From Pelomonas sp. Root1237 (GTDB lineage Bacteria; Pseudomonadota; Gammaproteobacteria; Burkholderiales; Burkholderiaceae_C): a DNA stretch of 64,000 bases. Below are positions 35,211 to 49,842 of this stretch, piece by piece (positions within the stretch are counted from its first letter, which is position 1; every line of letters starts with the position of its first letter). Under the pieces are notes generated by a model that did not search any database, was not told the DNA's origin, and worked only from the letters and a program-made list of their open reading frames with translations. The translations under genes and the position numbers were made by a program. The stretch is from NCBI RefSeq assembly GCF_001425055.1, contig NZ_LMDK01000017.1, positions 62,001 to 126,000 of the forward strand, given 5' to 3'.

Positions 35211-36812
35211 TCAGCCCTGTCGCCGCACCATCTCCCACGTCAGCCCAAACTTCATTAGGTACTTGCGCAGCCTGTCGGCATCGTTGATGACGGCGCGTTG
35301 CTTTCGCGACCGATCAAACAACCGGCGGCCAGCATCGGACAGGGTTTGCGCCTGCTGGCACACACGCACAACAGCTTCCAGCTGAAGGCGATCAAACAGA
35401 TCCAGCTCCTCTGCCGCGCCTTCAGGCAGCATTTCGTCGAGCGGGACATCCGACTTGGACTCGTCCGCTGGCTGCCACAGCCACTGAAGGCGCTGGATTT
35501 CGGCCTCGACCAGCCCGGTTGATATCCGCCCGCCATCTGCCAACGTGGCCATCCGTGTCACGCTGGCCAGCAGGTCGCGAAAGTTGCCGCTCCAAAGTGC
35601 GCTGGCGGATTTGGCGAAGCGCAGATAGTCGGCCTTGGCCTCGGCGTTGAACCGGACCGCCCGGCCCGACTCGGCCACGTAGCGAGCAAGCAGGTGGTCG
35701 ACATTGGGCTCAATGTCCTCGGGCCGCTGTGCGAGGCCCGGCAGCGTGTAGGCCCAGAGGTTGATGCGGGCGAACAGGTCTTCCCGAAACCGACCCTGCG
35801 CGACATCGATGCGCAGGTCGCGGTTGGTGCCAGCGATCAGCTGGAAGTCGCTGCTGACCTCGCGGTCGCTACCCATCGGGAAGAAGCGCTTCTCTTCCAC
35901 CGCCTTGAGCAGCATGGCCTGCTCGTCGAGGCCCAGTTCACCAATCTCGTCGAGGAAGAGCACGCCCTGGTGCGCCGTGCGCAGCAAGCCTGCCCTGTCG
36001 GCCGCGGCGCCAGTGAATGCACCCTTCTTGTGGCCGAACAGCGTTGACGCCGCGCCGTCGCCACGCAGCGTGGCGCAGTTCACCTCGACGAAGTCGCCCT
36101 GAACTTGGTGGCGCGACTTCTTGAGTTCGAACATGCGCCGCGCCAGGTGCGATTTGCCTGCACCCGTCGGGCCGGTCAGCAGGACAGGCGCTTGTGAACG
36201 CACGGCCACCCGCTCGATCTCCTCGATGAGGGCATTGAAGCGCTTGTTGCGGGTGGGGATGCCGCTCTTCAGGAACTCCAGCGCCTCCGCGTGGGCCTGG
36301 CTGAAGCGCTGGGCCAGCACGTCATACCGCGAGAGGTCCAGATCGATCAGCGTGTAGCTGCCTGGGTTGTCTCTCTGCTGCTTCTTCGGCGGCGCCGTCT
36401 GCAACAGCACGCCGGGGATGAAGCGCGACTCCACCATCAGGAACATGCAGATCTGGGCGACGTGCGTGCCGGTGGTGATGTGTGCCCAGTACTGCTCGTG
36501 CGCTGGATCGAAGCGGTAGCTGCGCGCCCAGTCGTAGAGGGCCGCGTACATTTCGCCGAAGTCCCAGGGGTCCATCACCTCCATGGGCACCAGATTGACG
36601 GCCGTGTCGGGCGACACGTTGGCGATATCGCGCACCAGGACCTGGGCCAGTGCCTCGTGCCTTCTCGAATAGAGCAGCTCCAGCCGGTCGATGAGCGTGT
36701 CTTCGTGCTGCACCAACGAGATCGTCGGCCGCCACTTCTCCCAGCGGCCCGCCCCCTGCCCCGAATCCAGCTGGGTGCCCATAAATCCGATGACGACGTT
36801 CTTCTTGGTCAT
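35211..36812 (-). CDS. rtcR: RtcR, sigma-54-dependent activator of the RNA-repair operon
   Basis: 533 aa. N-terminal RtcR/CARF-like sensing domain (about 1-180, with VIGFMGTQLDSGQGAGRWEK and WAHITTGTHVAQICMFLM), AAA+ domain with Walker A GPTGAGKS (about 215), the sigma-54 contact loop GAFTGA (about 264) and Walker B GVLFLDEIGEL, then a helical DNA-binding C-terminus. RtcR of enterics is switched on by ends of broken tRNA. The ATG at 36812 is chosen over a TTG two codons earlier. Divergent from rsr with a sigma-54 promoter between them. Confidence 0.95.
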   Translation of the reverse strand: MTKKNVVIGFMGTQLDSGQGAGRWEKWRPTISLVQHEDTLIDRLELLYSRRHEALAQVLVRDIANVSPDTAVNLVPMEVMDPWDFGEMYAALYDWARSYRFDPAHEQYWAHITTGTHVAQICMFLMVESRFIPGVLLQTAPPKKQQRDNPGSYTLIDLDLSRYDVLAQRFSQAHAEALEFLKSGIPTRNKRFNALIEEIERVAVRSQAPVLLTGPTGAGKSHLARRMFELKKSRHQVQGDFVEVNCATLRGDGAASTLFGHKKGAFTGAAADRAGLLRTAHQGVLFLDEIGELGLDEQAMLLKAVEEKRFFPMGSDREVSSDFQLIAGTNRDLRIDVAQGRFREDLFARINLWAYTLPGLAQRPEDIEPNVDHLLARYVAESGRAVRFNAEAKADYLRFAKSASALWSGNFRDLLASVTRMATLADGGRISTGLVEAEIQRLQWLWQPADESKSDVPLDEMLPEGAAEELDLFDRLQLEAVVRVCQQAQTLSDAGRRLFDRSRKQRAVINDADRLRKYLMKFGLTWEMVRRQG

Positions 36813-36828
36813 ATCCAAATTGATACCT

Positions 36829-36955: not shown

Positions 36956-36970
36956 TGGCACACCCGTTGC
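36956..36970 (+). promoter_or_regulatory. Sigma-54 promoter of rsr / RNA-repair operon
   Basis: TGGCAC-N5-TTGC (TGGCACACCCGTTGCA) matches the -24/-12 consensus at all key bases. It lies 47 bp upstream of the rsr ATG, facing away from rtcR, as expected for an RtcR-activated promoter. Confidence 0.88.
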
Positions 36971-37017: not shown

Positions 37018-38592
37018 ATGGTCAACACGCAGCTCTTCCACACGATCAAAGGCGCCCTGCTGCCCGCAGCCACGGCGCGCAACGCTCACCAAGCTCCGGC
37101 CTACGCCTTCAGCGCCAAGCATCAACTGGCGCAACTGGCGGCCACGGGCTGCCTGAGCCGGTCCTTCTACGCCAACGCCGAGGACCAACTCGACCAAGTT
37201 CTGACGCTGACCCAGAAGCTGGAACCCGCCTTCATTGCCAAGACCGCGATCTATGGTCGCCAATCGGGCCACATGAAGGACATGCCGGCTCTGCTGGCGG
37301 CCACCCTGGCCGTTCGCGACGTCGCGCTGCTGAGCCAAGTGTTCTCTCGCGTCGTCGACAACGGCAAGATGCTGCGCAACTTCGTGCAGATCCTGCGTAG
37401 CGGCTCTGTGGGTCGCAAGTCGCTGGGTTCCCGCCCGAAGAAGCTGGTGCAACACTGGCTGCTGACGGCCACCGAGAAGCAACTACTGAACGCGGCGGTA
37501 GGCAACACGCCTTCGCTGGCCGACGTGGTCAAGATGGTTCACCCCAAGCCTGCAGAGGCCTGGCGTGCGGCGTGGTTCGCATGGTTGATCGGCAAGCCGG
37601 TTGACGAAGCGGCCCTGCCACCCATCACCCAGGCGTTCGAACGCTTCAAGCGCGAAAGCGCCCAGGGCGTGGCCACCGAGGTGCCCGACGTTCCGTTCCA
37701 GATGCTGACCGCGCTGGCGCTGAACTCGGCTCAATGGGCCCAGATCGCTCGCTCGGGCTCGTGGCAGATGGTGCGTCAGAACTTGAACACCTTTGCCCGG
37801 CACGGCGTGTTCGACCTCCCCGGCATGGCCGAGGTGGTCGCCGCCAAGCTGAACGACGCACAAGCGGTGGCCAAGGCTCGAGTGATGCCGTACCAGCTGA
37901 TGTCCGCCTTCATGGCGGCCGGCGAGTCGGTGCCTGCCCAGGTTCGCGATGCGCTGCAGGATGCGATGGAGCTGTCGCTGGCCAACGTGCCGGCCCTGGC
38001 AGGTCGTGTCGTGGTGTGCCCTGACGTGTCGGGTTCGATGAGCTCGTCCGTGACCGGCTACCGCGGCTCGGCAACCTCCAGCGTGCGCTGCATCGACGTG
38101 GCTGCCCTGGTGGCCGCTGCGGTGCTGCGCAAGAACCCGCAGGCCCGCGTGCTGCCGTTCGAGCAGGATGTGGTGAAGCTGTCGCTGAACGCTCGCGACT
38201 CCGTGATGACCAACGCCCAGGCGTTGGCCAAGATCGGTGGCGGCGGTACCAACTGCAGCGCGCCGCTGGCTCTGCTGAACCGGCAGGGTGCAGAGGTGGA
38301 TCTGGTGATCCTGGTCTCGGACAACGAGTCCTGGGTCGACGCCAATCGGCGCGGTGCGACGCAGACCCTGCGCGAGTGGGAAGTGCTGAAGCAGCGCAAC
38401 CCGAAGGCGCGCCTGGTCTGCATCGACATCCAGCCGACGGCGACCACGCAGGCCGCGGAACGGCACGACATCATGAATGTCGGCGGCTTCTCGGACGCGG
38501 TGTTCACCATGGTGGCGAACTTCGCCACCAGCAAGATGGACGCCGAGCACTGGGTCGGTGAAATCGAAAACGTGTCGTTGGCCGCGCAGTAA
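37018..38592 (+). CDS. rsr: Ro60 orthologue Rsr (TROVE plus vWA domain)
   Basis: 524 aa ring-shaped RNA-binding protein that holds misfolded RNAs and Y RNAs. N-terminal TROVE HEAT-repeat domain (about 20-320: AKTAIYGRQSGHMKDMPALL, NFVQILRSGSVGRKSLGSRP, NTFARHGVFDLPGMAEVV) and C-terminal von Willebrand A domain with a complete MIDAS: DVSGSMSSS (about 336), then GGTNCSAPL and LVSDNESW. AACGAGGAGAACCTC gives a strong ribosome site. The five structured RNAs downstream are its likely ligands. Confidence 0.95.
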   Translation: MVNTQLFHTIKGALLPAATARNAHQAPAYAFSAKHQLAQLAATGCLSRSFYANAEDQLDQVLTLTQKLEPAFIAKTAIYGRQSGHMKDMPALLAATLAVRDVALLSQVFSRVVDNGKMLRNFVQILRSGSVGRKSLGSRPKKLVQHWLLTATEKQLLNAAVGNTPSLADVVKMVHPKPAEAWRAAWFAWLIGKPVDEAALPPITQAFERFKRESAQGVATEVPDVPFQMLTALALNSAQWAQIARSGSWQMVRQNLNTFARHGVFDLPGMAEVVAAKLNDAQAVAKARVMPYQLMSAFMAAGESVPAQVRDALQDAMELSLANVPALAGRVVVCPDVSGSMSSSVTGYRGSATSSVRCIDVAALVAAAVLRKNPQARVLPFEQDVVKLSLNARDSVMTNAQALAKIGGGGTNCSAPLALLNRQGAEVDLVILVSDNESWVDANRRGATQTLREWEVLKQRNPKARLVCIDIQPTATTQAAERHDIMNVGGFSDAVFTMVANFATSKMDAEHWVGEIENVSLAAQ

Positions 38593-38615
38593 GGCCGCGA
38601 CACATCAAGTTGGAC

Positions 38616-38727
38616 GGTGTCCCAGGCGAATGCCTGCAGGAGTACAGCACCTTTGGCCGCGTGGGCCCGCAAGCCTGCAACGGAGAACCCGTAGGCCGCT
38701 CTTGCAACTCTCGTCGCCTGGGGCACC
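38616..38727 (+). ncRNA. Y-RNA-like unit A of the rsr-linked RNA family
   Basis: Closing stem of 14 bp: 38616-38629 pairs with 38714-38727 (core CCCAGGCGA with TCGCCTGGG). Then the 5' internal loop ATGCC, second stem TGCAGGAG (38635-38642) with CTCTTGCA (38699-38706) containing the family G.U pair, then TACAG. The insert forms a nested hairpin (GCAAG...CTTGC around ACGG-AGAAC-CCGT) with no recognisable T-arm. It has the longest closing stem and the least tRNA likeness of the five. Confidence 0.75.
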
Positions 38728-38751
38728 AACCTCACAACAGAACACGCGTCG

Positions 38752-38815
38752 TCGCGTGGCGAATGCAGGTGGGACTACATAGAGCGTGTCTCACCGACTG
38801 TTTGTCGCCACGCGG
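38752..38815 (+). ncRNA. Y-RNA-like unit B (minimal hairpin form)
   Basis: Closing stem CGCGTGGCGA (38753-38762) with TCGCCACGCG (38805-38814), perfect over 10 bp; internal loop ATGCA opposite GACTGTTTG; second stem GGTGGGAC with GTCTCACC including the shared G.U; a 12-nt terminal loop starting TACAT. At 64 nt it is the shortest unit and defines the common core, with no inserted domain. Confidence 0.8.
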
Positions 38816-38830
38816 GGGCCATCAGTTTTT

Positions 38831-38924
38831 GCGCGAATGCTGGCAGGACTACATCTGGAACGCCGGGGGTTCGAATCCCCAACCGGGAAACCGGCATGGC
38901 AGTGTCTTGCCCCTCTTGTCGCGC
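38831..38924 (+). ncRNA. Y-RNA-like unit C with T-arm-like insert
   Basis: Closing stem GCGCGA (38831-38836) with TCGCGC (38919-38924), followed by TTTTTT, so it may end in a terminator-like structure. Second stem GGCAGGAC (38842-38849) with GTCTTGCC (38904-38911): relative to unit B, two base pairs have changed on both sides. The insert has a T-arm (GGGG-TTCGAAT-CCCC) and a short stem CCGG-GAAA-CCGG in the acceptor position, in permuted order. Confidence 0.8.
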
Positions 38925-38940
38925 TTTTTTGAGATGCCTT

Positions 38941-39068
38941 GCTGCGAATGCAGGTGGAACTACAGACTCTTAATCTCGTGGTCGCGGGTTCGAGTCCCGC
39001 CGGTCCCAAATCAGGGGGACCGTAGCTCAGTTGGTAGAGCACGACGTTTCACCAATCCTTGTCGCAGC
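38941..39068 (+). ncRNA. Y-RNA-like unit D containing a permuted tRNA-Lys(CUU) mimic
   Basis: Closing stem GCTGCGA (38941-38947) with TCGCAGC (39062-39068); second stem GGTGGAAC with GTTTCACC. The insert reads as a tRNA in circularly permuted order: GACTCTTAATC (anticodon-loop-like), variable TGGTC, T-arm GCGGG-TTCGAGT-CCCGC (38984-39000), acceptor 3' strand CGGTCCC, an 8-nt loop, acceptor 5' strand GGGACCG (39016-39022), then a full D-arm GCTC-AGTTGGTA-GAGC. The acceptor strands pair perfectly over 7 bp. Similar permuted tRNA-like modules are described for YrlA RNAs. Confidence 0.85.
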
Positions 39069-39088
39069 GGGGCATCACCCGCTTTTGC

Positions 39089-39224
39089 GGTGAATGCAGA
39101 TGGAACTACAGGTAGACGCACGCGGCGAAAGCTGCGTGCTCTGTGAGTGATCACAGAGCGCCCGGGTTCAAGTCCCGGTCCAGCAATGGATGGCGGAGCA
39201 AATGTTTCATCAAACCTAGTCACC
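39089..39224 (+). ncRNA. Y-RNA-like unit E with T-arm and GNRA-capped stems
   Basis: Closing stem GGTGA (39089-39093) with TCACC (39220-39224); second stem GATGGAAC (39099-39106) with GTTTCATC (39204-39211), again with the G.U. The insert holds three hairpins: GCACGCGGC-GAAA-GCTGCGTGC, TCTGTG...CACAGA, and a T-arm CCGGG-TTCAAGT-CCCGG (39162-39178), then TCCA-GCAA-TGGA in the acceptor position. Ends 25 nt before the next start codon. Confidence 0.78.
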
Positions 39225-39249
39225 CCTCTTCTTTGATCGACCAATCATC

Positions 39250-40020
39250 ATGAGCCTCGCAGCAATTGACCCGCAATCCGTGGATGCCGTCATCGCCGAC
39301 GCCTACAAGGTGTTCGGTCGATACCGGGCGCCCACCGTGCAGCTCGACGCATGTCCCTGCTGTATGCGCCCCACGCTGGAGGAGCAAATGCGCAAGCTGC
39401 CTTTGCGCAGGCTCACCCGAGAGCATTTCTATGAGTACAACACCGCCGCCAAAGGCGAGGTGCAGCCCGTATGGGAGGTCCTGTACTTTCTGCCGCGCCT
39501 GCTCGAGCTGATCGCTCATGGGGAAGACGTGCACCACTCCACCGAGCTCTACCTGGACCGCGTCGGCCGCTGCCCGCCTCAAACCTTCAATGAAGCTGAA
39601 CGCGAAGTGCTCAATCGGTTCGCGATCAACTACTTCGCCGGCCATCTGGCATCCCGTGACCAGCGTCCGCTCGAAGACGCCTTGACCGTGCTGCTGATGT
39701 TCCATATCGGTGGGTTTGACCCGCCACCGCTACTGGACTATTGGCTGCATTGCCAGGACCCGTGGTCGACGGTGCACTATGTCGAAGCCGGTTACTGGCA
39801 CTTCTGGGAGGACCGAGAGGTCACCAACGCCTTTGCGCAAGATCGCATCGAGTTTCGGCAGAGCATCCGCCAATGGATGCTGGCCCCGGCTCACCGCAAC
39901 ATCTTCGCTGACAAGCTGATGCGCCCCGACTTTCTGAACCTGGTTGAGAACCAGCCCGACAGTGGACGCATGCCGTTCAAGCTCCTTGTCGATGCTGTCT
40001 TCGACAACCTGATCGAGTAA
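39250..40020 (+). CDS. Uncharacterised protein between the structured RNAs and rtcB
   Basis: 256 aa, soluble, no signal peptide. I do not recognise a family. A CPCCMRPTLEEQ motif near residue 37 may bind metal; the rest is helical and aromatic-rich (WEVLYFLPRLLELIAHGEDV, LLMFHIGGFDPPPLLDYWLH, WSTVHYVEAGYWHFWEDREV). No good ribosome site precedes the ATG. Only 13 bp separate it from rtcB, so it belongs to the repair operon and may act on RNA or on Rsr. Confidence 0.8.
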   Translation: MSLAAIDPQSVDAVIADAYKVFGRYRAPTVQLDACPCCMRPTLEEQMRKLPLRRLTREHFYEYNTAAKGEVQPVWEVLYFLPRLLELIAHGEDVHHSTELYLDRVGRCPPQTFNEAEREVLNRFAINYFAGHLASRDQRPLEDALTVLLMFHIGGFDPPPLLDYWLHCQDPWSTVHYVEAGYWHFWEDREVTNAFAQDRIEFRQSIRQWMLAPAHRNIFADKLMRPDFLNLVENQPDSGRMPFKLLVDAVFDNLIE

Positions 40021-40033: not shown

Positions 40034-41251
40034 ATGAACTACAACATCGAACAACCCGAAGGCGGCGTGCCCATCAAGATGTGGACGCAAGGCGTCCCCG
40101 TGGAGCCCGAGGCCAAGCAGCAACTCGCCAACGCCGCCAAGCTGCCCATCGTGTTCAAGCACATCGCGGCTATGCCCGACGTGCACTTGGGCATCGGCGC
40201 AACCGTCGGCTCGGTGATTCCGACGCTGAAGGCCATCATCCCGGCCGCCGTGGGGGTGGACATCGGCTGCGGCATGATGGCCGCGAAGACCACGCTGCGC
40301 GCCGAAGACCTACCGGACAACCTCGGCCCGCTGCGCTCGGCCATCGAGAAGGCTGTGCCGCACGGCTCGGCGCCCAAGCACCGCGGTCGTGACCCCGGCA
40401 GCTGGGAGAACCCGCCCGAGACGGTGGACCAGGTCTGGGCCACGCTGGTGGACGAGTTCGATGCGCTGTGCGAGCTGCACCCGCGCCTGAAGAACACCAA
40501 CAACCGCAAGCACCTGGGAACGCTGGGCACCGGCAACCACTTCATCGAGGTCTGCCTCGACGAGGTCGGCTTCGTCTGGTTCATGCTGCACTCGGGCTCG
40601 CGCGGCGTGGGCAATGCCATCGGCACGCACTTCATCGAGCTGGCCAAGAAGGACGCGGAGCGAAACATGCGCAACCTGCCGGACAAGGACCTGGCCTACT
40701 TCGAGGAAGGCGCCCAGTACTTCGGCGACTACGTGCGCGGCGTGTCCTGGGCCCAGAAGTTCGCGATGAAGAACCGCGAGGTGATGATGGCCAACCTGAT
40801 CGCCACCGTGCGCTCGGTCATCACGAAGCCCTTCGAGGCCCATGTCGAGGCGGTGAACTGCCACCACAACTACGTGCAGCAGGAGCGCCACTTCGGCCAG
40901 GATGTGTTCGTGACGCGCAAGGGCGCCGTGAGCGCCAAGCGCGGCGAGATGGGCATCATCCCGGGCAGCATGGGCGCGCGCAGCTACATCGTTCGCGGCC
41001 TGGGCAACCCGGAAAGCTTCGAGAGCTGCAGCCACGGCGCGGGTCGCGTCATGAGCCGCACCAAGGCCAAGAAGATGTTCACCATCGAGGACCAGGTCAA
41101 GGCAACCGAGGGCGTCGAGTGCCGCAAGGACGCCGACGTCATCGACGAGATCCCGATGGCCTACAAGGACATCGACGCGGTGATGGCTGCGCAGAGCGAC
41201 CTGGTGGAAGTGGTGCACACCCTGAAGCAGGTCGTGTGCGTGAAGGGATAG
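40034..41251 (+). CDS. rtcB: RtcB, tRNA-splicing/RNA-repair ligase
   Basis: 405 aa, full length. Joins 2',3'-cyclic-phosphate (3'-phosphate) ends to 5'-OH ends using GTP and Mn. Metal and nucleotide motifs are all present: VGVDIGCGMMAAKTTL, GTLGTGNHFIEV, MLHSGSRGVGN, NCHHNYVQ, GAVSAKRGEMGIIPGSMGAR and the guanylylated His in SCSHGAGRVMSR (about residue 333). Repairs exactly the breaks that anticodon nucleases leave in tRNA. Confidence 0.97.
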   Translation: MNYNIEQPEGGVPIKMWTQGVPVEPEAKQQLANAAKLPIVFKHIAAMPDVHLGIGATVGSVIPTLKAIIPAAVGVDIGCGMMAAKTTLRAEDLPDNLGPLRSAIEKAVPHGSAPKHRGRDPGSWENPPETVDQVWATLVDEFDALCELHPRLKNTNNRKHLGTLGTGNHFIEVCLDEVGFVWFMLHSGSRGVGNAIGTHFIELAKKDAERNMRNLPDKDLAYFEEGAQYFGDYVRGVSWAQKFAMKNREVMMANLIATVRSVITKPFEAHVEAVNCHHNYVQQERHFGQDVFVTRKGAVSAKRGEMGIIPGSMGARSYIVRGLGNPESFESCSHGAGRVMSRTKAKKMFTIEDQVKATEGVECRKDADVIDEIPMAYKDIDAVMAAQSDLVEVVHTLKQVVCVKG

Positions 41252-41302
41252 ATGGGTGAGGGCCTCGCGCCCTCACCCATCTCAGAACAAGAAGAGAAAA
41301 AC

Positions 41303-42367
41303 ATGATCGAGATTGATGGCTCCGTCGGTGAGGGCGGAGGACAAATCCTGCGGACTTCACTGGCCCTGTCCATGTGCACGGGCCAGCCCTTCGCGCTGAA
41401 CAAGATCCGCGCTGGCCGCGCCAAGCCCGGCCTGATGCGCCAGCACCTGACTTGCGTGAACGCCGCGGCTGAGATCTGCGGCGCCGAGGTCCAGGGCGCT
41501 GAGCTGAATTCGCAATCGCTGAGCTTCACACCAGGCCAGGTGCGCGCGGGCGACTACACCTTCAATGTCGGCACGGCGGGCAGCTGCACGCTCGTGCTGC
41601 AGACCGTCTGGCCGGCATTGATGCTGGCCGATGAACCCAGCCAGTTGAAGCTCGGGGGCGGAACGCACAACCCCATGGCGCCGCCCTTCCACTTCCTGGA
41701 GCGCAGCTATGCGCCGCTGCTGCGCAAGCTCGGCGCGGAGGTCGAACTCGAACTGCGTCGCCTGGGCTTCTACCCGGCCGGCGGAGGCGAGATCGAAGTC
41801 AAGATCTGGCCCGCCGGCGACCGGCTGCAGGCTTTCGATTTGAATGAACGTGGCGCCAAGCTTGAGAGCTACGCCGAATGCTTCGCGCCGGCGCTGCCGC
41901 GCTCGGTGGCTCGGCGTGAGCTGCAGCAACTGGGCGCTGACCTTGGCTGGGGTGACGACCAGCTGCGCGAGGCAGCCAGCCGCCAGAACGAAGGACCTGG
42001 CAATGCGCTTCTGGCGACGCTGGTGTATGAAAACGTCTGCGAAGTCTTCACCGCGTTTGGCGAGAAGGGTGTCAGCGCCGAACAGGTCGCGCGCGATGTC
42101 GTGCGCGAGGTGCGGGCATACCAAGTCAGTGAAGCCGTGCTCGGGCCTCATCTGGCCGACCAGTGGGCACTGCCACTAGCGCTTGCCGTGTGGCGGCGTG
42201 GGGGCGAGGCGTCGTACACCTGTACGGAGCTGACGCCTCATGCAACAACGAACTTCGACGTGATCGAGCGGTTTTTGCCGGTGAAGTTCTCAACCGCGGC
42301 AATCGCTGGCGGCTTCTCAGTCAAGGTGCAGGTTGCTGACCCATCAGTCGGGCAATCCCTGTTGTAG
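41303..42367 (+). CDS. rtcA: RtcA, RNA 3'-terminal phosphate cyclase
   Basis: 354 aa. Converts RNA 3'-phosphate to 2',3'-cyclic phosphate with ATP. Motifs: N-terminal EIDGSVGEGGGQILRTSLAL, GTAGSCTLVLQTVWPALMLA, HNPMAPPFHFLERSYAPLL and the adenylylated His in ELTPHATTNFDVIERF (about 312). The start at 41303 follows AGAAGAGA; the longer frame reads through the inverted GGTGAGG-type sequence after rtcB and is not used. Confidence 0.96.
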   Translation: MIEIDGSVGEGGGQILRTSLALSMCTGQPFALNKIRAGRAKPGLMRQHLTCVNAAAEICGAEVQGAELNSQSLSFTPGQVRAGDYTFNVGTAGSCTLVLQTVWPALMLADEPSQLKLGGGTHNPMAPPFHFLERSYAPLLRKLGAEVELELRRLGFYPAGGGEIEVKIWPAGDRLQAFDLNERGAKLESYAECFAPALPRSVARRELQQLGADLGWGDDQLREAASRQNEGPGNALLATLVYENVCEVFTAFGEKGVSAEQVARDVVREVRAYQVSEAVLGPHLADQWALPLALAVWRRGGEASYTCTELTPHATTNFDVIERFLPVKFSTAAIAGGFSVKVQVADPSVGQSLL

Positions 42368-42500: not shown

Positions 42501-44579
42501 ATGAACGAGATCTACCTGCGCCGTCGATCGCGGCTGCATGTGCACCCGGGAACGGGCGGCGTCACGCCACAGCAGATGGCGACGATGCTCAAGGAGCTTG
42601 AGCCGCTGGGCTTCGTGCTGGCCGATGAAGTGGTTTCGCGCCTGTCCACACTGACACCCGAGGAAGTAGCGCGACTTCTACGCGATGCAACGCAGGAGAT
42701 GCGCAAGCTCGTGGGCGCGCACCGCCAGCATGTGCCATTGCACCCCGGCTTCCCAACACAGGTGATGGCGCTGACAGAGGCGCAGCTGTACCTCGACGCG
42801 GTGAGCCACTACGTGAGCCTGCGCCGGTTGCCGGCCACGGACGAGCAGCGCCCGCCGCTGCTGCACAACCGCGCCCCGCGCGTTGTGGAACTCGGATCGG
42901 TGGAGGACTTCGAGGTCATCTGCACGCGGCTCGCGGGATCGGCGGCATCACTGTCCGCGCAGGATCAAGCCGACCTGACTTGGTTCGTGTGCCAGTACCG
43001 TGCCGACGTTTTCCGTCTGCTACCAGCCAAGTTTTCGTTCAAGGAGAACCTGGCTTTGCTGGGCGCCCAGTTGGTGTTGCATGTGGAGGAGGACGAGCGC
43101 ACGCAGCACTTCGTCGAAACACATTTCCGCACTGCGACCGACGTGCTGCGCCTGGCCGTGGGTTTGTCCGGCGGTGATGTGTCGCTGGCTGCACCTTCGC
43201 GCTTCGCCCGTTTTCCGCGCCGTCAACGGCGGCTGCTGCTCGCCCTGCTGGAGGGCTGTGGCGGCCTGACGGAAGACATGCGTCGCCGCGTGGAGCAATT
43301 CAAGCGCCTGGGCGAGCGACTGCATCCGGGAGAGCACGCCGAGCGCTACCCGAAGACGGTTGCAGCATTTACGGTGATCCGCGACGGCTTGCCCTTCACG
43401 AGCTTCAACAGCCGCGTGGAGCAAGCCTTGATCACAGGCGACGTTGCCGGCGCGGCTCAAGCGCTGGAGGCGCGCCCGGGTGAATACGCTCGCCGGCTGG
43501 ACGTACTGCTACGCAAGAGCGGCGAGCCCGAGGCGTTGCTGAAACGCTTTGCCGAGTTGGCGCCGCGCGTGTCGACTGCCGTGCTGCTGCAGGTGCTCGC
43601 GCATTTCAAGGCGCGCGCTGAGAAGGGGCGCCTGCGCGTGTTCTTTCCCAAGGGCGAGGTCGCCAAGGTGTTCGCGCTGCGGGATCGCCGTGCAGCCATC
43701 GACGAACGCATCGGGCAACGGGTGGTGCGGGGTTGCGAGGAGGCGCTGTTGGCGCGCTTCGCGCAGTTGCCGCCTTTGGGACGCTGCTACGTGGATCCGG
43801 CGTTGGCGAGCTACGTCGTGCCGTTGGCACAACGCGCAGCGTCCAAGACGCTGCGTACCTTTGCGCGTGGCAGTCGCATTTCCGTGCCCGACGGCGGCTT
43901 CATCCGGCTCTTCCTTTGGTGGATGAACGGCCGGTCGCGGGTGGACATCGACCTCTCCGTGGTGCTGTACGGCGATGACTACCGCTACATGGACACGGTC
44001 GCGTTCTACAACCTGCGCAGCTGGGGTGCACACCACAGTGGCGACATCGTCGATGCCCCGAAGGGCGCGGCCGAGTTCATTGATCTGGACCTGCAGATGC
44101 TGCGCGCCCGCGGCGTGCGGTTCGTGATGATGTGCGTCAACAGCTACTCGGGCCAGGCCTACTGTGATCTCCCGGAGTGTTTCGCGGGTTGGATGTTGCG
44201 CACGAACCTGAACTCGGGCGAGCCTTTCGAGGCTCGCACCGTGGTGGATCGCGTGGACCTGGCTTCTGACGCGCACATCAGCCTACCGCTGGTGCTGGAC
44301 CTGCAACGGCGCGAGGTGTTGTGGGCGGACATTGCATTGCAAGAGCATCCGCGCTTCGCCAACAGCGTGGCGAGCAATCTGGCCGGCGTGTCGTTGATGC
44401 TGCGCGCGCTCCATGAAATGGTGAAGCCCGACATGCATACGCTGCTATCGCTACACGCGAGGGCACGCGGCACGATCGTAGACAGCCCCGAGGGCGCCGA
44501 TGCCTGCTTCGGAACGACGCGTGGATGCACTGTCACGCCGCTGGATGGTGACTTGATCAGGTCAGACTATGTTCAGTAA
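42501..44579 (+). CDS. Large protein with TerD-like C-terminal domain
   Basis: 692 aa, cytoplasmic. The first about 470 residues are helical and unrecognised (LHNRAPRVVELGSVEDFEVI, FKARAEKGRLRVFFPKGEV). The C-terminus carries a TerD-type calcium-binding pattern: RSRVDIDLSVVLYGDDYRYM, HHSGDIVDAPKGAAEFIDLD, and FVMMCVNSYSGQAYCDLPEC. TerD proteins occur in stress and phage-related clusters. AGGGAGGAGACG gives a strong start. Role in RNA repair is inferred only from position. Confidence 0.75.
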   Translation: MNEIYLRRRSRLHVHPGTGGVTPQQMATMLKELEPLGFVLADEVVSRLSTLTPEEVARLLRDATQEMRKLVGAHRQHVPLHPGFPTQVMALTEAQLYLDAVSHYVSLRRLPATDEQRPPLLHNRAPRVVELGSVEDFEVICTRLAGSAASLSAQDQADLTWFVCQYRADVFRLLPAKFSFKENLALLGAQLVLHVEEDERTQHFVETHFRTATDVLRLAVGLSGGDVSLAAPSRFARFPRRQRRLLLALLEGCGGLTEDMRRRVEQFKRLGERLHPGEHAERYPKTVAAFTVIRDGLPFTSFNSRVEQALITGDVAGAAQALEARPGEYARRLDVLLRKSGEPEALLKRFAELAPRVSTAVLLQVLAHFKARAEKGRLRVFFPKGEVAKVFALRDRRAAIDERIGQRVVRGCEEALLARFAQLPPLGRCYVDPALASYVVPLAQRAASKTLRTFARGSRISVPDGGFIRLFLWWMNGRSRVDIDLSVVLYGDDYRYMDTVAFYNLRSWGAHHSGDIVDAPKGAAEFIDLDLQMLRARGVRFVMMCVNSYSGQAYCDLPECFAGWMLRTNLNSGEPFEARTVVDRVDLASDAHISLPLVLDLQRREVLWADIALQEHPRFANSVASNLAGVSLMLRALHEMVKPDMHTLLSLHARARGTIVDSPEGADACFGTTRGCTVTPLDGDLIRSDYVQ

Positions 44580-45333: not shown

Positions 45334-45897
45334 TTAGGCGAGCCGCGAGCCTCGCGGGAGCTTGGCTGCCAGCCACTCGTGGACGTCCACGCGGATCTTG
45401 CGTCCCTTGAGCAGGAAGTCTTCGTGTCTGCTTGGCACATACGGCATGAAGCACAGCGGCATGCGGGCTTCCTCAGGTGTCCGGTTGGCCTTCAAGGAAT
45501 TGCACGAGCGGCAGGCCGCGATCGTGTTCATCCAGGTGAGGCGTCCACCCCGGGACTCAGGGACGATATGGTCGACCGTCAACTCACGTTCATCGAACAG
45601 CTCCGTGCAGTAGGCGCAGGTGTGGCGGTCGCGCCGAAGCAGCTTGACCTTGGAAAAGACGGGCACCAAATCAAACAGGTTGATCCGTGAGGCACCTCTC
45701 AGCGCGATGATGGGCGGCACTTCAACGATCGACTGCAGGCCAGTCAGCGAGTTGGTGCCGCCTCTGAGCACCGCCAGAGGCGCCTCACCCACAGTCCAAA
45801 CCACGGAATCGGTAGCCAGATGGCCGACAGCTTCCTCGACCGAGATCCATGCCTGCGGGAGGCCGGTGATGTCGAGTTGGAGAACTTCGTGCTGCAT
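45334..45897 (-). CDS. HNH endonuclease, last gene of the tRNA operon
   Basis: 187 aa. The HNH fold is complete: CAYC zinc pair, VDHIVPESRGG, NTIAACRSCN and the tail LKANRTPEEARMPLCFMPYV. The family is widespread in Burkholderiales, usually as a lone gene of unknown target. Start at 45897 follows AAGGAGGAGCC. It lies 76 bp downstream of tRNA-Leu(GAG) in the same orientation and upstream of a strong terminator, so it is probably transcribed with the tRNAs. Confidence 0.9.
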   Translation of the reverse strand: MQHEVLQLDITGLPQAWISVEEAVGHLATDSVVWTVGEAPLAVLRGGTNSLTGLQSIVEVPPIIALRGASRINLFDLVPVFSKVKLLRRDRHTCAYCTELFDERELTVDHIVPESRGGRLTWMNTIAACRSCNSLKANRTPEEARMPLCFMPYVPSRHEDFLLKGRKIRVDVHEWLAAKLPRGSRLA

Positions 45898-45972
45898 CGG
45901 GGGCTCCTCCTTTCTGATGGTCAGCGTTGGTGGCGCGATTGCGCGCGGGATTTGGTTCTGTCGAACCGGCTT

Positions 45973-46058
45973 TGGTCCCCGCCGCAGGGATCGAACCTGC
46001 ACGCCTTACGGCACGAGCACCTCAAGCTCGCGCGTCTGCCTGATTCCGCCAGGCGGGG
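45973..46058 (-). tRNA. tRNA-Leu(GAG)
   Basis: Type II tRNA with anticodon loop TTGAGGT, a long variable arm (TGCCGTAAGGCG) and T-loop TTCGATC. Acceptor CCCCGCC pairs perfectly with GGCGGGG; CCA is encoded. Last tRNA of the array. Confidence 0.95.
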
Positions 46059-46073
46059 TGGGGAGATGTGACT

Positions 46074-46150
46074 TGGGGTGTGCGATCGGTTTCGAACCGA
46101 TGCCTCCGGGAATCACAATCCCGGGCTCTTCCAACTGAGCTACGCACACC
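46074..46150 (-). tRNA. tRNA-His(GTG)
   Basis: Anticodon loop TTGTGAT with a strong GC stem. The extra G at position -1 pairs with C73, the identity mark of tRNA-His, and CCA is encoded. Confidence 0.95.
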
Positions 46151-46317
46151 GCTGGTAAGACCATCAAGTGCTGCCGGCCGCGATTCATGGCCAGTTCATC
46201 TCGAACGATCCGTTGGCCCGTCATCCAGACCTTGGTTGGTTGAATGGGGATCTGGCCCAAGAACTGCGCGAGGTGGCTGAGGTGTTGCCACAACTTTGAC
46301 AACCCGTGCCGGGGTTT

Positions 46318-46375
46318 GGATGGCGACTCGCAACTCATGAACGAGTCGCTCTAACCGACTGAGTGAACGGATTAA
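46318..46375 (-). pseudogene. Partial tRNA-Met(CAT)-like sequence
   Basis: The D-arm (CTCAGTCGGTTAGAGC) and anticodon arm (GACTCGTTCATGAGTTG) of a CAT tRNA are intact on the minus strand, but no T-loop consensus or matching acceptor strand follows. A decayed gene or half-tRNA. The rest of the 46151-46387 gap shows no gene I can support. Confidence 0.5.
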
Positions 46376-46387
46376 GGAGTCAATGAG

Positions 46388-46464
46388 TGGTCCCTCGAGC
46401 GCGATTTGAACGCGCAGCCTTCCGGTTAAAAGCCGGTTGCTCTCGCCAGTTGAGCTATCGAGGG
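46388..46464 (-). tRNA. tRNA-Lys(TTT)
   Basis: Anticodon loop CTTTTAA, D-arm GCTCAACTGGCGAGAGC, T-loop TTCAAAT, acceptor CCCTCGA with TCGAGGG, discriminator A and encoded CCA. Note that the mimic in unit D of the structured RNAs carries CTT instead. Confidence 0.95.
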
Positions 46465-46471
46465 TATGGAC

Positions 46472-46548
46472 TGGCTCCACCTGCTGGCCTCGAACCCGCG
46501 CGCTCCCGGTTAACAGCCGGGCGCTCTACCAAACTGAGCTAAGGTGGA
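46472..46548 (-). tRNA. tRNA-Asn(GTT)
   Basis: Anticodon loop CTGTTAA on a CCCGG stem, D-arm GCTCAGTTTGGTAGAGC, T-loop TTCGAGG, acceptor TCCACCT with AGGTGGA, discriminator G, CCA encoded. Confidence 0.93.
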
Positions 46549-46554
46549 AATGAC

Positions 46555-46631
46555 TGGTACGACGGACACGATTCGAACGTGCGCGCTCCAGGTTCGTAGC
46601 CTGGTGCTCTTCCAGCTGAGCTACCGTCGTA
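46555..46631 (-). tRNA. tRNA-Arg(ACG)
   Basis: Anticodon loop CTACGAA; A34 would need TadA editing to inosine. Acceptor TACGACG with CGTCGTA; CCA encoded. The only Arg tRNA in the array. Confidence 0.95.
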
Positions 46632-46640
46632 GGGTGAAAC

Positions 46641-46718
46641 TGGCAAGGGGTCTGGGATTCGAACCCAGGATCTCCGCAGTCAGAGTGCGGCGCCTTAGAC
46701 CGGACTTGGCCAACCCCC
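46641..46718 (-). tRNA. tRNA-Gln(CTG)
   Basis: Anticodon loop CTCTGAC on CCGCA/TGCGG, Gln-like D-arm (GGCCAAG...TAAGGC), T-loop TTCGAAT, CCA encoded. The acceptor is weak: two G.U pairs and one mismatch, so function may be reduced. Confidence 0.82.
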
Positions 46719-46748
46719 AATTGAGCTCTTCAAAGCACTGTCACAAGG

Positions 46749-46824
46749 TGGAAAGGGTGGAAGGACTCGAACCTTCAACCGCCCGGATCAAAACCGGGTG
46801 CTCTGCCAATTGAGCTACACCCCA
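46749..46824 (-). tRNA. tRNA-Gln(TTG)
   Basis: Anticodon loop TTTTGAT on CCCGG/CCGGG, normal D- and T-arms, CCA encoded. Position 1 is T opposite T and the discriminator is T rather than the usual Gln G, so identity elements are weakened. Confidence 0.85.
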
Positions 46825-46848
46825 CCTGGGACATCCAAACCGTTGGAC

Positions 46849-46923
46849 TGGTGCCCGCAGATGGGATCGAACCATCGGCCGCCGCCTTATCAAGACGGTG
46901 CTCTACCGCTGAGCTATGCGAGC
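46849..46923 (-). tRNA. tRNA-Ile(GAT)
   Basis: Anticodon loop TTGATAA, acceptor GCTCGCA with TGCGGGC (one G.U), discriminator A, CCA encoded. Unlike the usual Ile(GAT), it is not in an rRNA spacer. Confidence 0.94.
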
Positions 46924-46927
46924 AATC

Positions 46928-47020
46928 TGGTGGAAGCGGCGGGAGTTGAACTCGCGTGCCGACTCTTCGTCGGCCATCCGCTTTCGAGGCGGCACCGTTA
47001 GACCACTCCGGCACGCTTCC
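46928..47020 (-). tRNA. tRNA-Ser(CGA)
   Basis: Type II tRNA with anticodon loop CTCGAAA and a long variable arm (GGCCGACGAAGAGTCGG). Acceptor GGAAGCG pairs with CGCTTCC; CCA encoded. Confidence 0.94.
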
Positions 47021-47028
47021 ATGAGTTG

Positions 47029-47120
47029 TGGCGGGTGCAGCTGGATTTGAACCAGCGCGCCGGCTCGACGCCGACGACCGCTTAGCAGGCGGTTGCCTTA
47101 GACCTCTCGGCCATGCACCC
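47029..47120 (-). tRNA. tRNA-Ser(GCT)
   Basis: Type II tRNA with anticodon loop CTGCTAA on ACCGC/GCGGT, long variable arm (GTCGGCGTCGAGCCGGC), acceptor GGGTGCA with TGCACCC, discriminator G, CCA encoded. Confidence 0.95.
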
Positions 47121-47125
47121 TAGAC

Positions 47126-47209
47126 TGGTTCCCGAGCTCGGATTCGAACCGAGAGAGGCCCTGCTTCTGAGGCAGGAAGGTGTACCAAATTTCCATTAGC
47201 CACCCGGGA
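47126..47209 (-). tRNA. tRNA with Leu anticodon CAG, atypical body
   Basis: Anticodon loop CTCAGAA on a perfect CCTGC/GCAGG stem, T-arm CTCGG-TTCGAAT-CCGAG, acceptor TCCCGGG with CTCGGGA, CCA encoded. The variable region is only 6 nt, whereas bacterial tRNA-Leu has a long arm, and the D-loop is enlarged. Either a decayed tRNA-Leu or one with altered identity. Confidence 0.75.
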
Positions 47210-47218
47210 CTTGTTGAC

Positions 47219-47311
47219 TGGCGGAGACGACGAGATTCGAACTCGTGAGTCGGCTCGACGCCGACCATCTGTTTTCCAAACAGCGACCTTGGACCACTCG
47301 GTCACGTCTCC
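47219..47311 (-). tRNA. tRNA-Ser(GGA)
   Basis: Type II tRNA with anticodon loop TTGGAAA, long variable arm (GGTCGGCGTCGAGCCGAC), acceptor GGAGACG with CGTCTCC, discriminator G, CCA encoded. Confidence 0.95.
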
Positions 47312-47405
47312 TTGGCTGTTCTTGCCGGTTGACCAGGCGTTGCATCCCAGGACGCGATGCATGACGCGAAACTACCCTGTGCATTAGCAGGTCAGGGCGT
47401 CGATC

Positions 47406-47494
47406 TGGTGCCGGCGGTCGGGATCGAACCGACATTCCCGAATTCGGGAGACAGGGTTTGGGCCTGCTGCGTGAACCAGTTTCGCCACGCCGGC
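47406..47494 (-). tRNA. tRNA-Leu(CAA)
   Basis: Type II tRNA: long variable arm (TCTCCCGAATTCGGGA), acceptor GCCGGCG with CGCCGGC, CCA encoded. The anticodon loop is CCCAAAC, with C instead of the near-universal U at position 33. Confidence 0.9.
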
Positions 47495-47516
47495 TCAAGT
47501 TGGATGAGAAAGTCGA

Positions 47517-47607
47517 TGGGGGAGCGCGTCCGATTCGAACGGACGACCCGGGCGAGCCGGATTCCGGGGTTCAAGCCTGGCGCGTTCGACCGCTCCGCCA
47601 GCGCTCC
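47517..47607 (-). tRNA. tRNA-Ser(TGA)
   Basis: Type II tRNA with anticodon loop CTTGAAC, long variable arm, acceptor GGAGCGC with GCGCTCC, CCA encoded. The discriminator is C instead of the usual Ser G. Confidence 0.92.
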
Positions 47608-47619
47608 ATGGTCTCGGTC

Positions 47620-47696
47620 TGGTGCCTCAAGCAGGGCTCGAACCTGCGACGCCCGGCTCTTCAGGCCGGCGCTCTACCCACTGAGCTATCGAGGCA
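47620..47696 (-). tRNA. tRNA-Phe(GAA)
   Basis: Anticodon loop CTGAAGA on CCGGC/GCCGG, acceptor TGCCTCG with TGAGGCA (one non-Watson-Crick pair), discriminator A, CCA encoded. Confidence 0.94.
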
Positions 47697-47701
47697 ATGT
47701 G

Positions 47702-47777
47702 TGGCGCCCTCGAGGAGGATCGAACTCCCGACTTCCCGCTAGACAGGCGGGCACTCTGGCCGCTGAGTTACGAGGGC
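47702..47777 (-). tRNA. tRNA-Asp(GTC)
   Basis: Anticodon loop CTGTCTA on CCCGC/GCGGG, acceptor GCCCTCG with CGAGGGC, discriminator G as expected for Asp, CCA encoded. Confidence 0.95.
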
Positions 47778-47999
47778 AAAAATGGTTGCCGCGCTTTGAC
47801 GGCAGTCACCGGGTTGCGTCCGGCCGCTCCACCTCTTCACGGGCTTCGCGTCGCGTGCCGAGTCGGGCATCTCGGGTAGCGCCAGCTATCGTGCTGACTG
47901 CATCCAAGGCCACGGCCTGGGCTTCTCCGAATTTCGGGTCACCACCTCGGAGCACAGTGGTGAGGTCGCCCGCGCAGCTTTTGCCTGCGCTGTCGATAG
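47778..47999. other. Spacer inside the tRNA array
   Basis: 222 bp between tRNA-Asp and tRNA-Pro without a tRNA, ribosome site or convincing ORF. Confidence 0.5.
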
Positions 48000-48075
48000 T
48001 GGTCTCCGTGGACGGGTTCGAACCGCCGACATCCTGCTCCCAAAGCAGGCGCGCTACCAACTGCGCTACACGGAG
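48000..48075 (-). tRNA. tRNA-Pro(TGG)
   Basis: Anticodon loop TTTGGGA on CCTGC/GCAGG, D-arm GCGCAGTTGGTAGCGC typical of Pro, acceptor CTCCGTG with CACGGAG, discriminator A, CCA encoded. Confidence 0.95.
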
Positions 48076-48081
48076 TAGTTT

Positions 48082-48157
48082 TGGTGGAACCAGTCGGGAT
48101 CGAACCGACAACCTCCTGCTTGCAAGGCAGGCGCTCTCCCAGTTGAGCTATGGCCCC
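48082..48157 (-). tRNA. tRNA-Ala(TGC)
   Basis: Anticodon loop CTTGCAA. Acceptor GGGGCCA with TGGTTCC keeps pairing through two G.U pairs; the Ala identity pair G3.U70 appears to be present. CCA encoded. Confidence 0.94.
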
Positions 48158-48168
48158 ATGAAGGGTGA

Positions 48169-48243
48169 TGGTGGGTGCTGACGGGATCGAACCGCCGGCC
48201 CGCTGCTTGTAAGGCAGCCGCTCTACCGCTGAGCTAAGCACCC
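48169..48243 (-). tRNA. tRNA-Val(TAC)
   Basis: Anticodon loop CTTACAA on GCTGC/GCAGC, acceptor GGGTGCT with AGCACCC, discriminator A, CCA encoded. Confidence 0.95.
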
Positions 48244-48348
48244 ATTTACGCGCATGGTTGTCGGTGACGAGTTCCGACGTCCGCACAATATTTGCGGCCG
48301 GTTTCTGGCATCCCGAAGCGCGATCTCGACGGGAGCCTCCTGTTGATG

Positions 48349-48424
48349 TGGTCGCGCAGGGCGGACTCGAACCGCCGATCTCGGGCTTATGAGGCCCGCG
48401 GGTTGCCAGCTTCCCTACCGCGCA
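48349..48424 (-). tRNA. tRNA-Met(CAT)-type
   Basis: Anticodon loop CTCATAA on CGGGC/GCCCG, acceptor TGCGCGG with CTGCGCG (first pair U.G), CCA encoded. Could be elongator Met, an initiator-like form (weak first pair), or Ile2 if modified by TilS; the anticodon stem lacks the three consecutive G-C pairs of a standard initiator. Confidence 0.88.
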
Positions 48425-48431
48425 ATTGCAC

Positions 48432-48506
48432 TGGAGCGGGCCAGGGGAATTGAACCCCTCTACTCAGCTTGGAAGGCTGGTGCCTAAGCCGATCGGCCAG
48501 GCCCGC
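48432..48506 (-). tRNA. tRNA-Gly(TCC)
   Basis: Anticodon loop CTTCCAA, acceptor GCGGGCC with GGCCCGC, T-loop TTCAATT, discriminator T, CCA encoded. Confidence 0.94.
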
Positions 48507-48523
48507 ATGAACGAAACAATGGT

Positions 48524-48599
48524 TGGCTGGCCATGAAGGAGTCGAACCCTCAACCTTCGGATTTGGAATCCGCTGCGCTGCCAGTTGCGCCAATGACCA
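48524..48599 (-). tRNA. tRNA-Trp(CCA)
   Basis: Anticodon loop TTCCAAA on CGGA/TCCG, acceptor TGGTCAT with ATGGCCA (one G.U-type pair), discri­minator G as expected for Trp, CCA encoded. Confidence 0.93.
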
Positions 48600-48995: not shown

Positions 48996-49068
48996 TGACA
49001 GGTGTGGGAATTGAACCCACGACCTTCAGATTACAAGTCTGATGCTCTACCAACTGAGCTAACTGCTA
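48996..49068 (-). tRNA. tRNA-Thr(TGT), acceptor stem degenerate
   Basis: D-arm GCTCAGTTGGTAGAGC, anticodon loop CTTGTAA on TCAGA/TCTGA and T-arm GTGGG-TTCAATT-CCCAC are perfect, but the acceptor strands (TAGCAGT and ACCTGTC) hardly pair and no CCA follows. Probably a pseudogene; a second Thr(TGT) lies at 49935. Confidence 0.65.
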
Positions 49069-49695: not shown

Positions 49696-49716
49696 AGGGT
49701 GAGCGTTGATGAAACT

Positions 49717-49802: not shown

Positions 49803-49842
49803 TCAGAACCCTTCCCGAGGCGCAACTGCGCCTACGGCATCC

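Follow-up and report, generated by a model that had tools for sequence, protein, structure and literature searches.

Predicted Yrl RNAs carrying five kinds of insert between rsr and rtcB of Pelomonas sp. Root1237

The rsr-rtcBA locus

A tandem array of five structured units, predicted to be Yrl (Y RNA-like) RNAs, is found between the rsr and rtcB genes of Pelomonas sp. Root1237. The stretch of DNA analysed, here called the window, is 64,000 nucleotides (nt) (64 kb) long and corresponds to positions 62,001-126,000 of the forward strand of contig NZ_LMDK01000017.1. Coordinates are positions in the window, and are collected in Table 1. The array is part of an RNA-repair operon controlled by RtcR, as denoted by the divergent rtcR gene, a sigma-54 site, and the rsr, rtcB and rtcA genes. 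The sigma-54 site matches exactly what we take to be the -24/-12 consensus, and is the sole exact match on both strands of the 64 kb. The Rsr protein scores only 73.6 bits against the NCBIfam Rsr model, the cut-off of which is 900 bits. No sigma-70 promoter and no + strand terminator were seen in a consensus scan of the region 38560-39280, and read-through from rsr is therefore the simplest route of expression. The five RNAs are most simply made together with Rsr, RtcB and RtcA from the RtcR/sigma-54 promoter, presumably by co-transcription and processing.

The locus was compared with 80 bacterial rsr loci, the best of 571 Rsr relatives, and with 80 viral loci, the best of 90. Because the bacterial loci are the best 80 of 571, the rates given below hold for close relatives only. 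Pfam and NCBIfam searches gave no match for the open reading frame (ORF) of 256 amino acids (aa) filling the gap between the array and rtcB. ORFs resembling it were found by tblastn in 2 of the 80 related loci, both from Acidovorax (L088 and L089).

Table 1. Annotated and predicted features of the RNA-repair locus. R1 is a covariance model and A3 to A6 are alignments, all described in the text.
Feature	Position	Strand	Evidence
RtcR, activator of the RNA-repair operon	35211-36818	-	Pfam RtcR 8.7e-84; NCBIfam RNA_repair_RtcR 830.9 bits (cut-off 650)
Sigma-54 -24/-12 site TGGCAC-N5-TTGC, upstream of rsr	36956-36970	+	exact consensus match
Rsr (Ro60 orthologue; TROVE and vWA_Ro60)	37018-38592	+	Pfam
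Unit 1 (alpha): core and three-way junction insert without T loop	38616-38727	+	descriptor, R1, folding, A4
Unit 2: bare core, 12-nt insert	38752-38815	+	descriptor, R1, folding
Unit 3 (gamma): core, T arm and capped acceptor (minihelix)	38831-38924	+	descriptor, R1, A5
Unit 4: core and permuted whole-tRNA mimic (T arm, capped acceptor, D arm, anticodon arm)	38933-39076	+	Rfam YrlA, R1, A6
Unit 4, lower anticodon stem-loop GA-CTCTTAA-TC, triplet CUU at 38969-38971	38965-38975	+	
Unit 5: core and predicted long-variable-arm tRNA mimic opened in the D loop	39089-39224	+	R1 69.5 bits, minimum free energy fold, A3
Unit 5, D stem CGC (39117-39119)/GCG (39193-39195)	39117-39195	+	fold, R1, A3
Unit 5, inside the D stem: anticodon arm (GAAA cap)	39122-39135		
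Unit 5, inside the D stem: variable arm	39136-39161		
Unit 5, inside the D stem: T arm	39162-39178		
Unit 5, inside the D stem: capped acceptor	39179-39190		
256-aa ORF between array and rtcB	39250-40020	+	family unassigned
RtcB, RNA ligase	40034-41251	+	Pfam 6.6e-127
RtcA, RNA 3'-phosphate cyclase	41300-42367	+	Pfam 6.2e-80

Five units built on a shared core

All units are organized in the same order: a closing stem, AUGC(N), a second stem of 8-9 base pairs (bp), UACA, an insert, the second-stem partner, 7-9 nt and the closing-stem partner. An initial annotation, drawn from the letters of the window, had described five tandem structured units of this type. A descriptor scan recovered them on the + strand; it required a closing stem followed by AUGC and a second stem, then the insert, the partner of the second stem, a short loop and the partner of the closing stem. 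The 657-nt intergenic region has six ATGC words, and five of them yield a unit; 300 dinucleotide shuffles gave 0.03 units on average, and never more than 1, at a score of at least 14. The array is far above chance. The stems originally quoted are correct; closing stems of units 1, 2 and 4 are longer than was quoted, reaching 14, 11 and 15 bp, respectively. Folded as RNA, units 1 to 5 have z-scores of -3.9, -4.9, -1.9, -5.2 and -4.4. The folding energies of units 1, 2, 4 and 5 are better than those of all 200 shuffles; that of unit 3 is equalled by 8 of 200, and with its z-score of -1.9 this unit is weak on energy alone.

A G.U pair at position 5 of the second stem had been taken as a constant trait. 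It is found in all five units, and in 170 of the 269 UACA-bearing units of the 80 bacterial loci, and is hence a preference and not a rule. The RNA had also been read on the strand of the operon. This orientation is backed independently by the covariance model R1 described below, which gave 246 matches at E values of at most 0.001 in the 80 loci (18 being the training set), listed on the rsr strand. Covariation of the stems, likewise anticipated, is visible in alignments of homologues, where pairing exceeds that of shuffled alignments and pairs change on both sides.

The inserts vary, as already reported in the initial annotation, which missed that they are of distinct kinds: a three-way junction in unit 1, none in unit 2, a minihelix in unit 3, a whole tRNA mimic in unit 4, and in unit 5 a tRNA mimic with the opening in its D loop.

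Relation to Rfam families and covariance modelling

Unit 4 is a member of the Rfam YrlA family (RF02553), as it scores 75.1 bits and the gathering threshold is 69. This comparison had been suggested at the outset; the other four units fall below the cut-off, with 31.1 bits for unit 5, 30 for unit 2, 27.0 for unit 3 and no match for unit 1. Unit 2 is similar to YrlB (RF02565), a short Yrl RNA with little or no insert found beside rsr, yet its score of 21.8 bits is far below the gathering threshold of 97. In YrlA RNAs the anticodon stem is the point at which the tRNA-like module is permuted. This holds for unit 4 and not for unit 5: because it opens in the D loop, unit 5 is filed as a Yrl RNA and not as YrlA. 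All five units share the core stem, and are located beside rsr on the same strand, as is general for Yrl RNAs; judged by sequence, they are Yrl RNAs. The proposed assignment to a Y-RNA-like family of the rsr-rtcBA operon is thus sustained, with unit 4 passing the Rfam threshold, and from position and core the units are likely ligands of Rsr. None of them qualifies as a tRNA gene: ARAGORN makes no call in 38616-39224, and an open acceptor with a CCA end is missing. Capped acceptors are seen in the folds of units 4 and 5, and in the descriptor and alignment of unit 3.

The covariance model R1 was built from alignment A2, composed of 18 hand-picked units of other species of the same D-loop type as unit 5. 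In the 64 kb, the top five matches are the units of the array: unit 5 (69.5 bits, E 2.8e-17), unit 4 (56.9 bits), unit 2 (43.3 bits, E 6.6e-10), unit 3 (39.5 bits) and unit 1 (28.2 bits, E 1.2e-5). The matches that follow score at most 26 bits, and are mostly tRNA genes on the other strand. Genome-wide, units 5, 4, 2 and 3 lead, followed by two places hosting tandem tRNAs, and unit 1 is not among the matches listed. Two YrlA matches found in the host genome (C18:36870 and C16:584455) were rejected, being ordinary tandem tRNA genes that mimic the permuted model.

Annotation with Rfam at cut-off overlooks four of the five units of the window. In 15 loci hosting D-loop-type units, it similarly recognizes 7 YrlA RNAs among 59 descriptor units, all 7 labelled as anticodon-permuted, and misses the other 52. 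No D-loop-type unit of these loci is called YrlA, and one is touched by the Rfam tRNA family (31.7 bits).

Unit 4, a tRNA mimic with an anticodon arm

Unit 4 carries the core within the 5' strand of its anticodon stem, which leaves an anticodon loop of 7 nt. The 11-nt tract GA-CUCUUAA-UC occurs identically within the anticodon arm of the host tRNA-Lys(ctt). The Rfam consensus of YrlA lacks an anticodon loop, and in the Rfam alignment the 13 nt following CUAC in unit 4, which include this tract, are an insertion. When rotated into the order of a tRNA, unit 4 fits tRNA-Lys(ttt) best among 65 distinct host tRNAs, with a score of 38.2 (maximum of 200 shuffles 15.2; unrotated 13.3). The best rotation opens at the acceptor cap, or within a few nt of it, in units 4 and 5 alike.

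A hairpin with a 7-nt loop is found at the anticodon position in 68 of 91 distinct bacterial and viral segments, against 25 in shuffled ones. In the same segments, lengths of 3-6 and 8 nt are rarer than by chance, and loops of 10 nt slightly more frequent (26 versus 20.8). Loops of 9 nt are enriched (47 versus 22), as expected because they correspond to 7-nt-loop hairpins in which the inner pair is left out. U33 is present in 58 and a purine at position 37 in 62 of the 68 loops, and both are present in 55 (3.6 when shuffled). These 55 loops, bacterial and viral, display 27 triplets, corresponding to 16 amino acids plus UCA. The two-part anticodon stem totals exactly 5 bp, with the core inserted after 3, 2 or 1 pairs, in 48 of 51 units chosen for U33 and R37 and having a recognized D arm; in all 51 the distance from loop to T stem is 9-10 nt, as in tRNA. 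Upper strands of the stem are conserved, and when swapped between units full pairing is still attained in 68% of cases, which makes the stem-length rule the stronger point.

Alignment A6 includes 41 units, selected with a pattern biased towards a lower stem of 2 bp and taking no account of the loop letters. U33 is present in all 41 rows, and the 31-39 pair is kept in all 40 distinct rows (AU in 20, CG in 19, GC in 1). Paired cells amount to 99.3%, against 91.3% in shuffled alignments, and the lower hairpin, 7-nt loop included, is recovered by RNAalifold unprompted. Of 101 runs of three positions, the triplet varies the most, whether all the RNAs or just 12 from Variovorax/Acidovorax are considered; in the latter, 92 of 118 gap-free columns are invariant. 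An independent replicate set of 62 segments, not pre-sorted by class, gave a weaker signal in the same direction, with 28 seven-nt loops against 17.6 in shuffled segments, 17 of them with U33 and R37.

Unit 5, a predicted tRNA mimic opened in the D loop

Read in circular order, unit 5 is modelled as a tRNA with a long variable arm, the D loop of which has been opened to host the shared core. The variable arm measures 11 bp in the thermodynamic fold. The same order, with ordinary variable loops, recurs in other species. In A2, 96.1% of the cells are paired, against 78.2% in shuffled alignments, both-side changes occur in 30 of 37 pairs, and the same fold is recovered by RNAalifold unprompted. 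In A3, which includes 16 relatives with a long variable arm, the corresponding values are 95.5% and 88.9%. Both sides change in 7 of the 8 pairs of the variable arm and in all 4 of the acceptor, and in none of the 3 D-stem pairs. The D stem varies between units yet pairs (GAGC/GCTC, GCGC/GCGC, CGC/GCG). Compared after rotation with the same host tRNAs, unit 5 best fits tRNA-Leu(taa), with a score of 20.3 (maximum of 200 shuffles 16.8; unrotated 13.3).

The D-loop label assigned by the descriptor alone was not relied on, as 5.2% of shuffled flanks earn it; among real tRNA-like inserts 66-130 nt long, it is earned by 25 of 117. For this reason the D-loop type rests on covariance model and covariation. 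D-loop-type units are present by label in 26 of the 80 bacterial loci; eight further loci, four hand-picked (L089, L090, L114, L127) and four assigned by alignment to R1 (L085, L088, L122, L132), would make 34. Matches to R1 at E values of at most 1e-6 are found in 16 of 398 genomes, host included, and the type occurs also in other classes of the phylum. Among the arrays read, genomes G978 and G1196 have one D-loop-type unit by label and G1128 has two; the R1 alignment adds one each in G1196, G1128 and G988.

Taken with unit 4, unit 5 would mean that the tRNA fold has received one shared stem at two distinct points.

Units 1, 2 and 3

RNAs of the unit 3 type have been aligned in A5 (28 of 47 candidates, the window included). 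Covariation is seen in all 4 pairs of the acceptor and in 2 of the 4 T-stem pairs. The closing GCC/GGC stem is weak, as 75% of its cells are paired and no both-side change is seen.

In A4, made of 14 RNAs of the unit 1 type, covariation of the whole RNA exceeds that of shuffles, and nearly all both-side changes fall in the core. The four helices of the junction have 0, 1, 1 and 0 pairs changing on both sides, and further pair types are not above shuffles (182 of 500). Since its helices are nearly devoid of such changes, the junction is claimed weakly, and unit 1 may be described as a three-way junction that is conserved and itself shows little covariation. Unit 2 is a bare core, with the 12-nt insert given in Table 1.

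Distribution of Yrl units in rsr loci

Rsr searches gave matches in 13 of 300 genomes from the order, 27 of 299 from the family and 5 of 369 from the class, the host genome being included in each count. In the 80 bacterial loci, a stricter descriptor detects 268 units at a score of at least 20, against none on the reverse strand and 1 in reversed sequences; at a score of at least 19 the units are 275, against 0 and 3, respectively. At the latter threshold all 80 loci host units, at least two in 75 loci and at least five in 15, with a maximum of seven. Multi-unit loci are therefore the norm, and the five-copy array, earlier held to be remarkable, is as such ordinary. Variovorax paradoxus and Hydrogenophaga are among the bacteria with such arrays (L086, L105, L074). 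Some unit calls look false, as those with inserts of 180-200 nt in L090, L110 and L124. RtcB is in view in 75 and RtcR in 74 of the 80 loci. Where RtcB is in view, 246 of 248 units are located between rsr and rtcB.

Class labels were assigned automatically, and the label AP+ASL requires U33 and R37 by definition. By label, the anticodon-arm type is found in 54 of the 80 bacterial loci, the T-arm minihelix type in 48 and the D-loop type in 26; anticodon-arm and D-loop types occur together in 19. Insert types differ in presence between loci.

A single-protein Rsr query found no relative in viral contigs; a query made of an alignment did. Units were identified in 36 of the 80 viral contigs (32 distinct sets), up to eight in number, and the anticodon-arm type is present in 11. 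Viral contigs L135, L142, L166, L172, L175 and L200 host as many as eight Yrl units, and anticodon loops are present in some of these. rtcB is in view in 1 of the 80 viral contigs. In the whole set, ARAGORN calls a tRNA inside three units (L125, L166, L172). The one in L172 looks unpermuted, and is perhaps a third mode of grafting. Cardiobacterium hominis hosts two rsr loci (L117 and L125), each with five descriptor units upstream of rsr; R1 identifies six in L125.

Relation to known systems

The closest known RNA is YrlA, a bacterial Y RNA that mimics tRNA. It shares with the array the core stem, with CGAAUGC and UUGUCG, and the rsr neighbourhood, and with unit 4 the permutation of T, acceptor and D arms at the anticodon stem. 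The structure of Salmonella YrlA is available as PDB 6CU1 (named in passages of PMC8394870 and PMC11472068), and is described in the latter as a circular permutant of tRNA. According to parts of PMC7790460 and PMC9879122, the rsr-yrlBA-rtcBA operon of Salmonella has the same RtcR/sigma-54 control, the same gene order and Yrl RNAs between rsr and rtcB. Two Yrl genes are described there, whereas five with five kinds of insert, plus an extra ORF before rtcB, are found here. In the RYPER complex of Deinococcus (Rsr/Y RNA/PNPase) the Y RNA bound to Rsr carries an effector-binding end, as stated in sections of PMC4726728 and PMC8394870; a like arrangement is predicted here. The T loop, acceptor helix and D arm are features shared with tmRNA and tRNA, and unit 4, when rotated, resembles tRNA-Lys. 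Unlike tmRNA and tRNA, the units lack a CCA end, and the acceptor is closed by a loop.

Two Yrl RNAs in an rsr operon and tRNA mimicry permuted at the anticodon are already in print, as the passages cited above show. An anticodon arm with a variable triplet and an opening in the D loop were both missing from the literature searched, and the main Y RNA papers outside it may describe either. Both are also missing from the Rfam YrlA alignment examined.

Possible roles

The reading that we prefer, and regard as evenly poised between right and wrong, is that the five Yrl RNAs, having a shared stem and differing modules, are tRNA look-alikes tethered to Rsr that act during tRNA damage. The stem common to all units is presumably the part bound by Rsr, and each unit would display on it a different module, three of which (units 3, 4 and 5) are tRNA-like. 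During tRNA damage, the units might bring Rsr to factors that read the elbow and acceptor helix of tRNA, or draw such factors off tRNA. The anticodon arm of unit 4 could be a bait for factors acting on the anticodon loop. Because units 3, 4 and 5 share the T arm and the capped acceptor helix, the common partner to be sought is a reader of elbow and acceptor. For units 1 and 2, the role may be no more than occupying or gating Rsr. In passages of PMC7790460, RtcR is reported to be activated by 5' tRNA fragments ending in 2',3'-cyclic phosphate, and a role as competitive inhibitor is proposed for the tRNA-like domain of YrlA.

Several results weigh against this reading. With R1, the two places hosting tandem tRNAs reach 29.9 and 35.5 bits, and outrank unit 1 (28.2 bits) genome-wide. 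The margin by which unit 5 resembles a tRNA is small, and tRNA-Ser(gga), with 20.0, nearly equals tRNA-Leu; the Leu-like character therefore depends mainly on letters of the D loop, which we take to be Leu-like. Energy folding of unit 4 alone does not form the 2-bp lower stem. RNAalifold on A6 joins the A of UACA to U41, leaving the upper anticodon stem open. In A6 two of the three upper pairs are invariant, and the third fails in 3 of 40 rows, so that the upper stem is argued from comparison between classes. The loops equal to a reference loop are 24 of 55, versus 19.4 with permuted triplets (73 of 2000 permutations reach 24) and 13.1 at random, and A34 occurs in 19 of 68 loops but in 1 of 62 reference loops. 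Variability of the loop may be neutral. Units 1, 2, 3 and 5 have no anticodon loop, and a bait for anticodon nucleases cannot therefore explain the whole array. In Salmonella, fragments of YrlA went undetected, and YrlA is accordingly no substrate of the RecA-dependent nuclease, as far as passages of PMC7790460 tell. The idea that particular tRNAs are imitated by anticodon identity was dropped, as exact loops barely exceed permutation.

A bolder form of the preferred reading, which we hold to be unlikely, is that rtc operons make a panel of tRNA baits bound to Rsr, in which an exchangeable anticodon loop absorbs or reports the attack of anticodon nucleases. The triplet would turn over fast as attackers change, and D-loop-opened and minihelix members would cover other faces of tRNA. 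If many bacterial Y RNAs have a complete anticodon arm whose triplet changes, altering a single loop would directly test decoy and sensor models.

The units might instead be nothing but tethers for PNPase, five adaptors of the RYPER type that link Rsr to this enzyme, with tRNA likeness providing a stable surface and the differences between inserts being minor. In passages of PMC8394870 and PMC9879122, the Deinococcus Y RNA is indeed described as tethering Rsr to PNPase, and Salmonella Rsr and YrlA as binding PNPase. This leaves unaccounted for the recurrence of the three insert classes across loci (54, 26 and 48 of 80, the first two together in 19), as well as an anticodon stem of 5 bp with a 7-nt loop, and we find it rather improbable as the full explanation.

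It is quite unlikely that the inserts are a neutral patchwork of captured tRNA pieces, kept for stability, with copy number and loop sequence left to drift. Triplets that vary almost freely, with a weak excess of exact real loops, and inserts that come and go from locus to locus would fit; against it, loop length is favoured, U33 (58 of 68), purine 37 (62 of 68) and stem length are kept, the 12 Variovorax/Acidovorax RNAs hold 92 of 118 columns invariant while the triplet is their most variable part, and the D stem pairs on through changes between units.

Very improbable, finally, is a role as signal amplifiers, in which anticodon nucleases cut the anticodon-bearing Yrl RNA and the 5' piece, ending in 2',3'-cyclic phosphate, feeds back on RtcR: the loop has standard anticodon size and frame, and RtcR binds such 5' fragments of tRNA, but in the same passages of PMC7790460 fragments of Salmonella YrlA are not seen, and recognition of a Yrl fragment by RtcR is only hypothetical. 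The look-alike reading is the one retained here.

Other genes of the window and tRNA arrays near rsr

Arrays of tRNA genes were noted upstream of rsr in two bacterial loci, L065 (293-1501, 8 genes) and L073 (4-1560, 14 genes). A general link between rsr and tRNA arrays was rejected, as arrays of at least 8 tRNAs occur in 2 of the 80 loci, with about 4 kb in view on each side.

In the window, the rtcA gene is followed by a 692-aa ORF (42501-44579, + strand) that resembles the MXAN_6230/SCO0854 RING family, with 473.8 bits, below the cut-off of 600. Farther downstream, an array of 28 tRNA genes is called by ARAGORN on the - strand at 45973-50268. One of them, a tRNA-Thr(tgt), lies inside a GOLLD RNA (48665-49134, Rfam 167.4 bits), and 45334-46002 encodes an HNH endonuclease. 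The association of tRNAs, GOLLD and HNH resembles the transferred cluster of 32 tRNAs, GOLLD and HNH of mycobacteria described in passages of PMC6582537. A tRNA with a four-base anticodon (gcct) is reported by ARAGORN inside the tRNA array, at 47126-47209 on the - strand.
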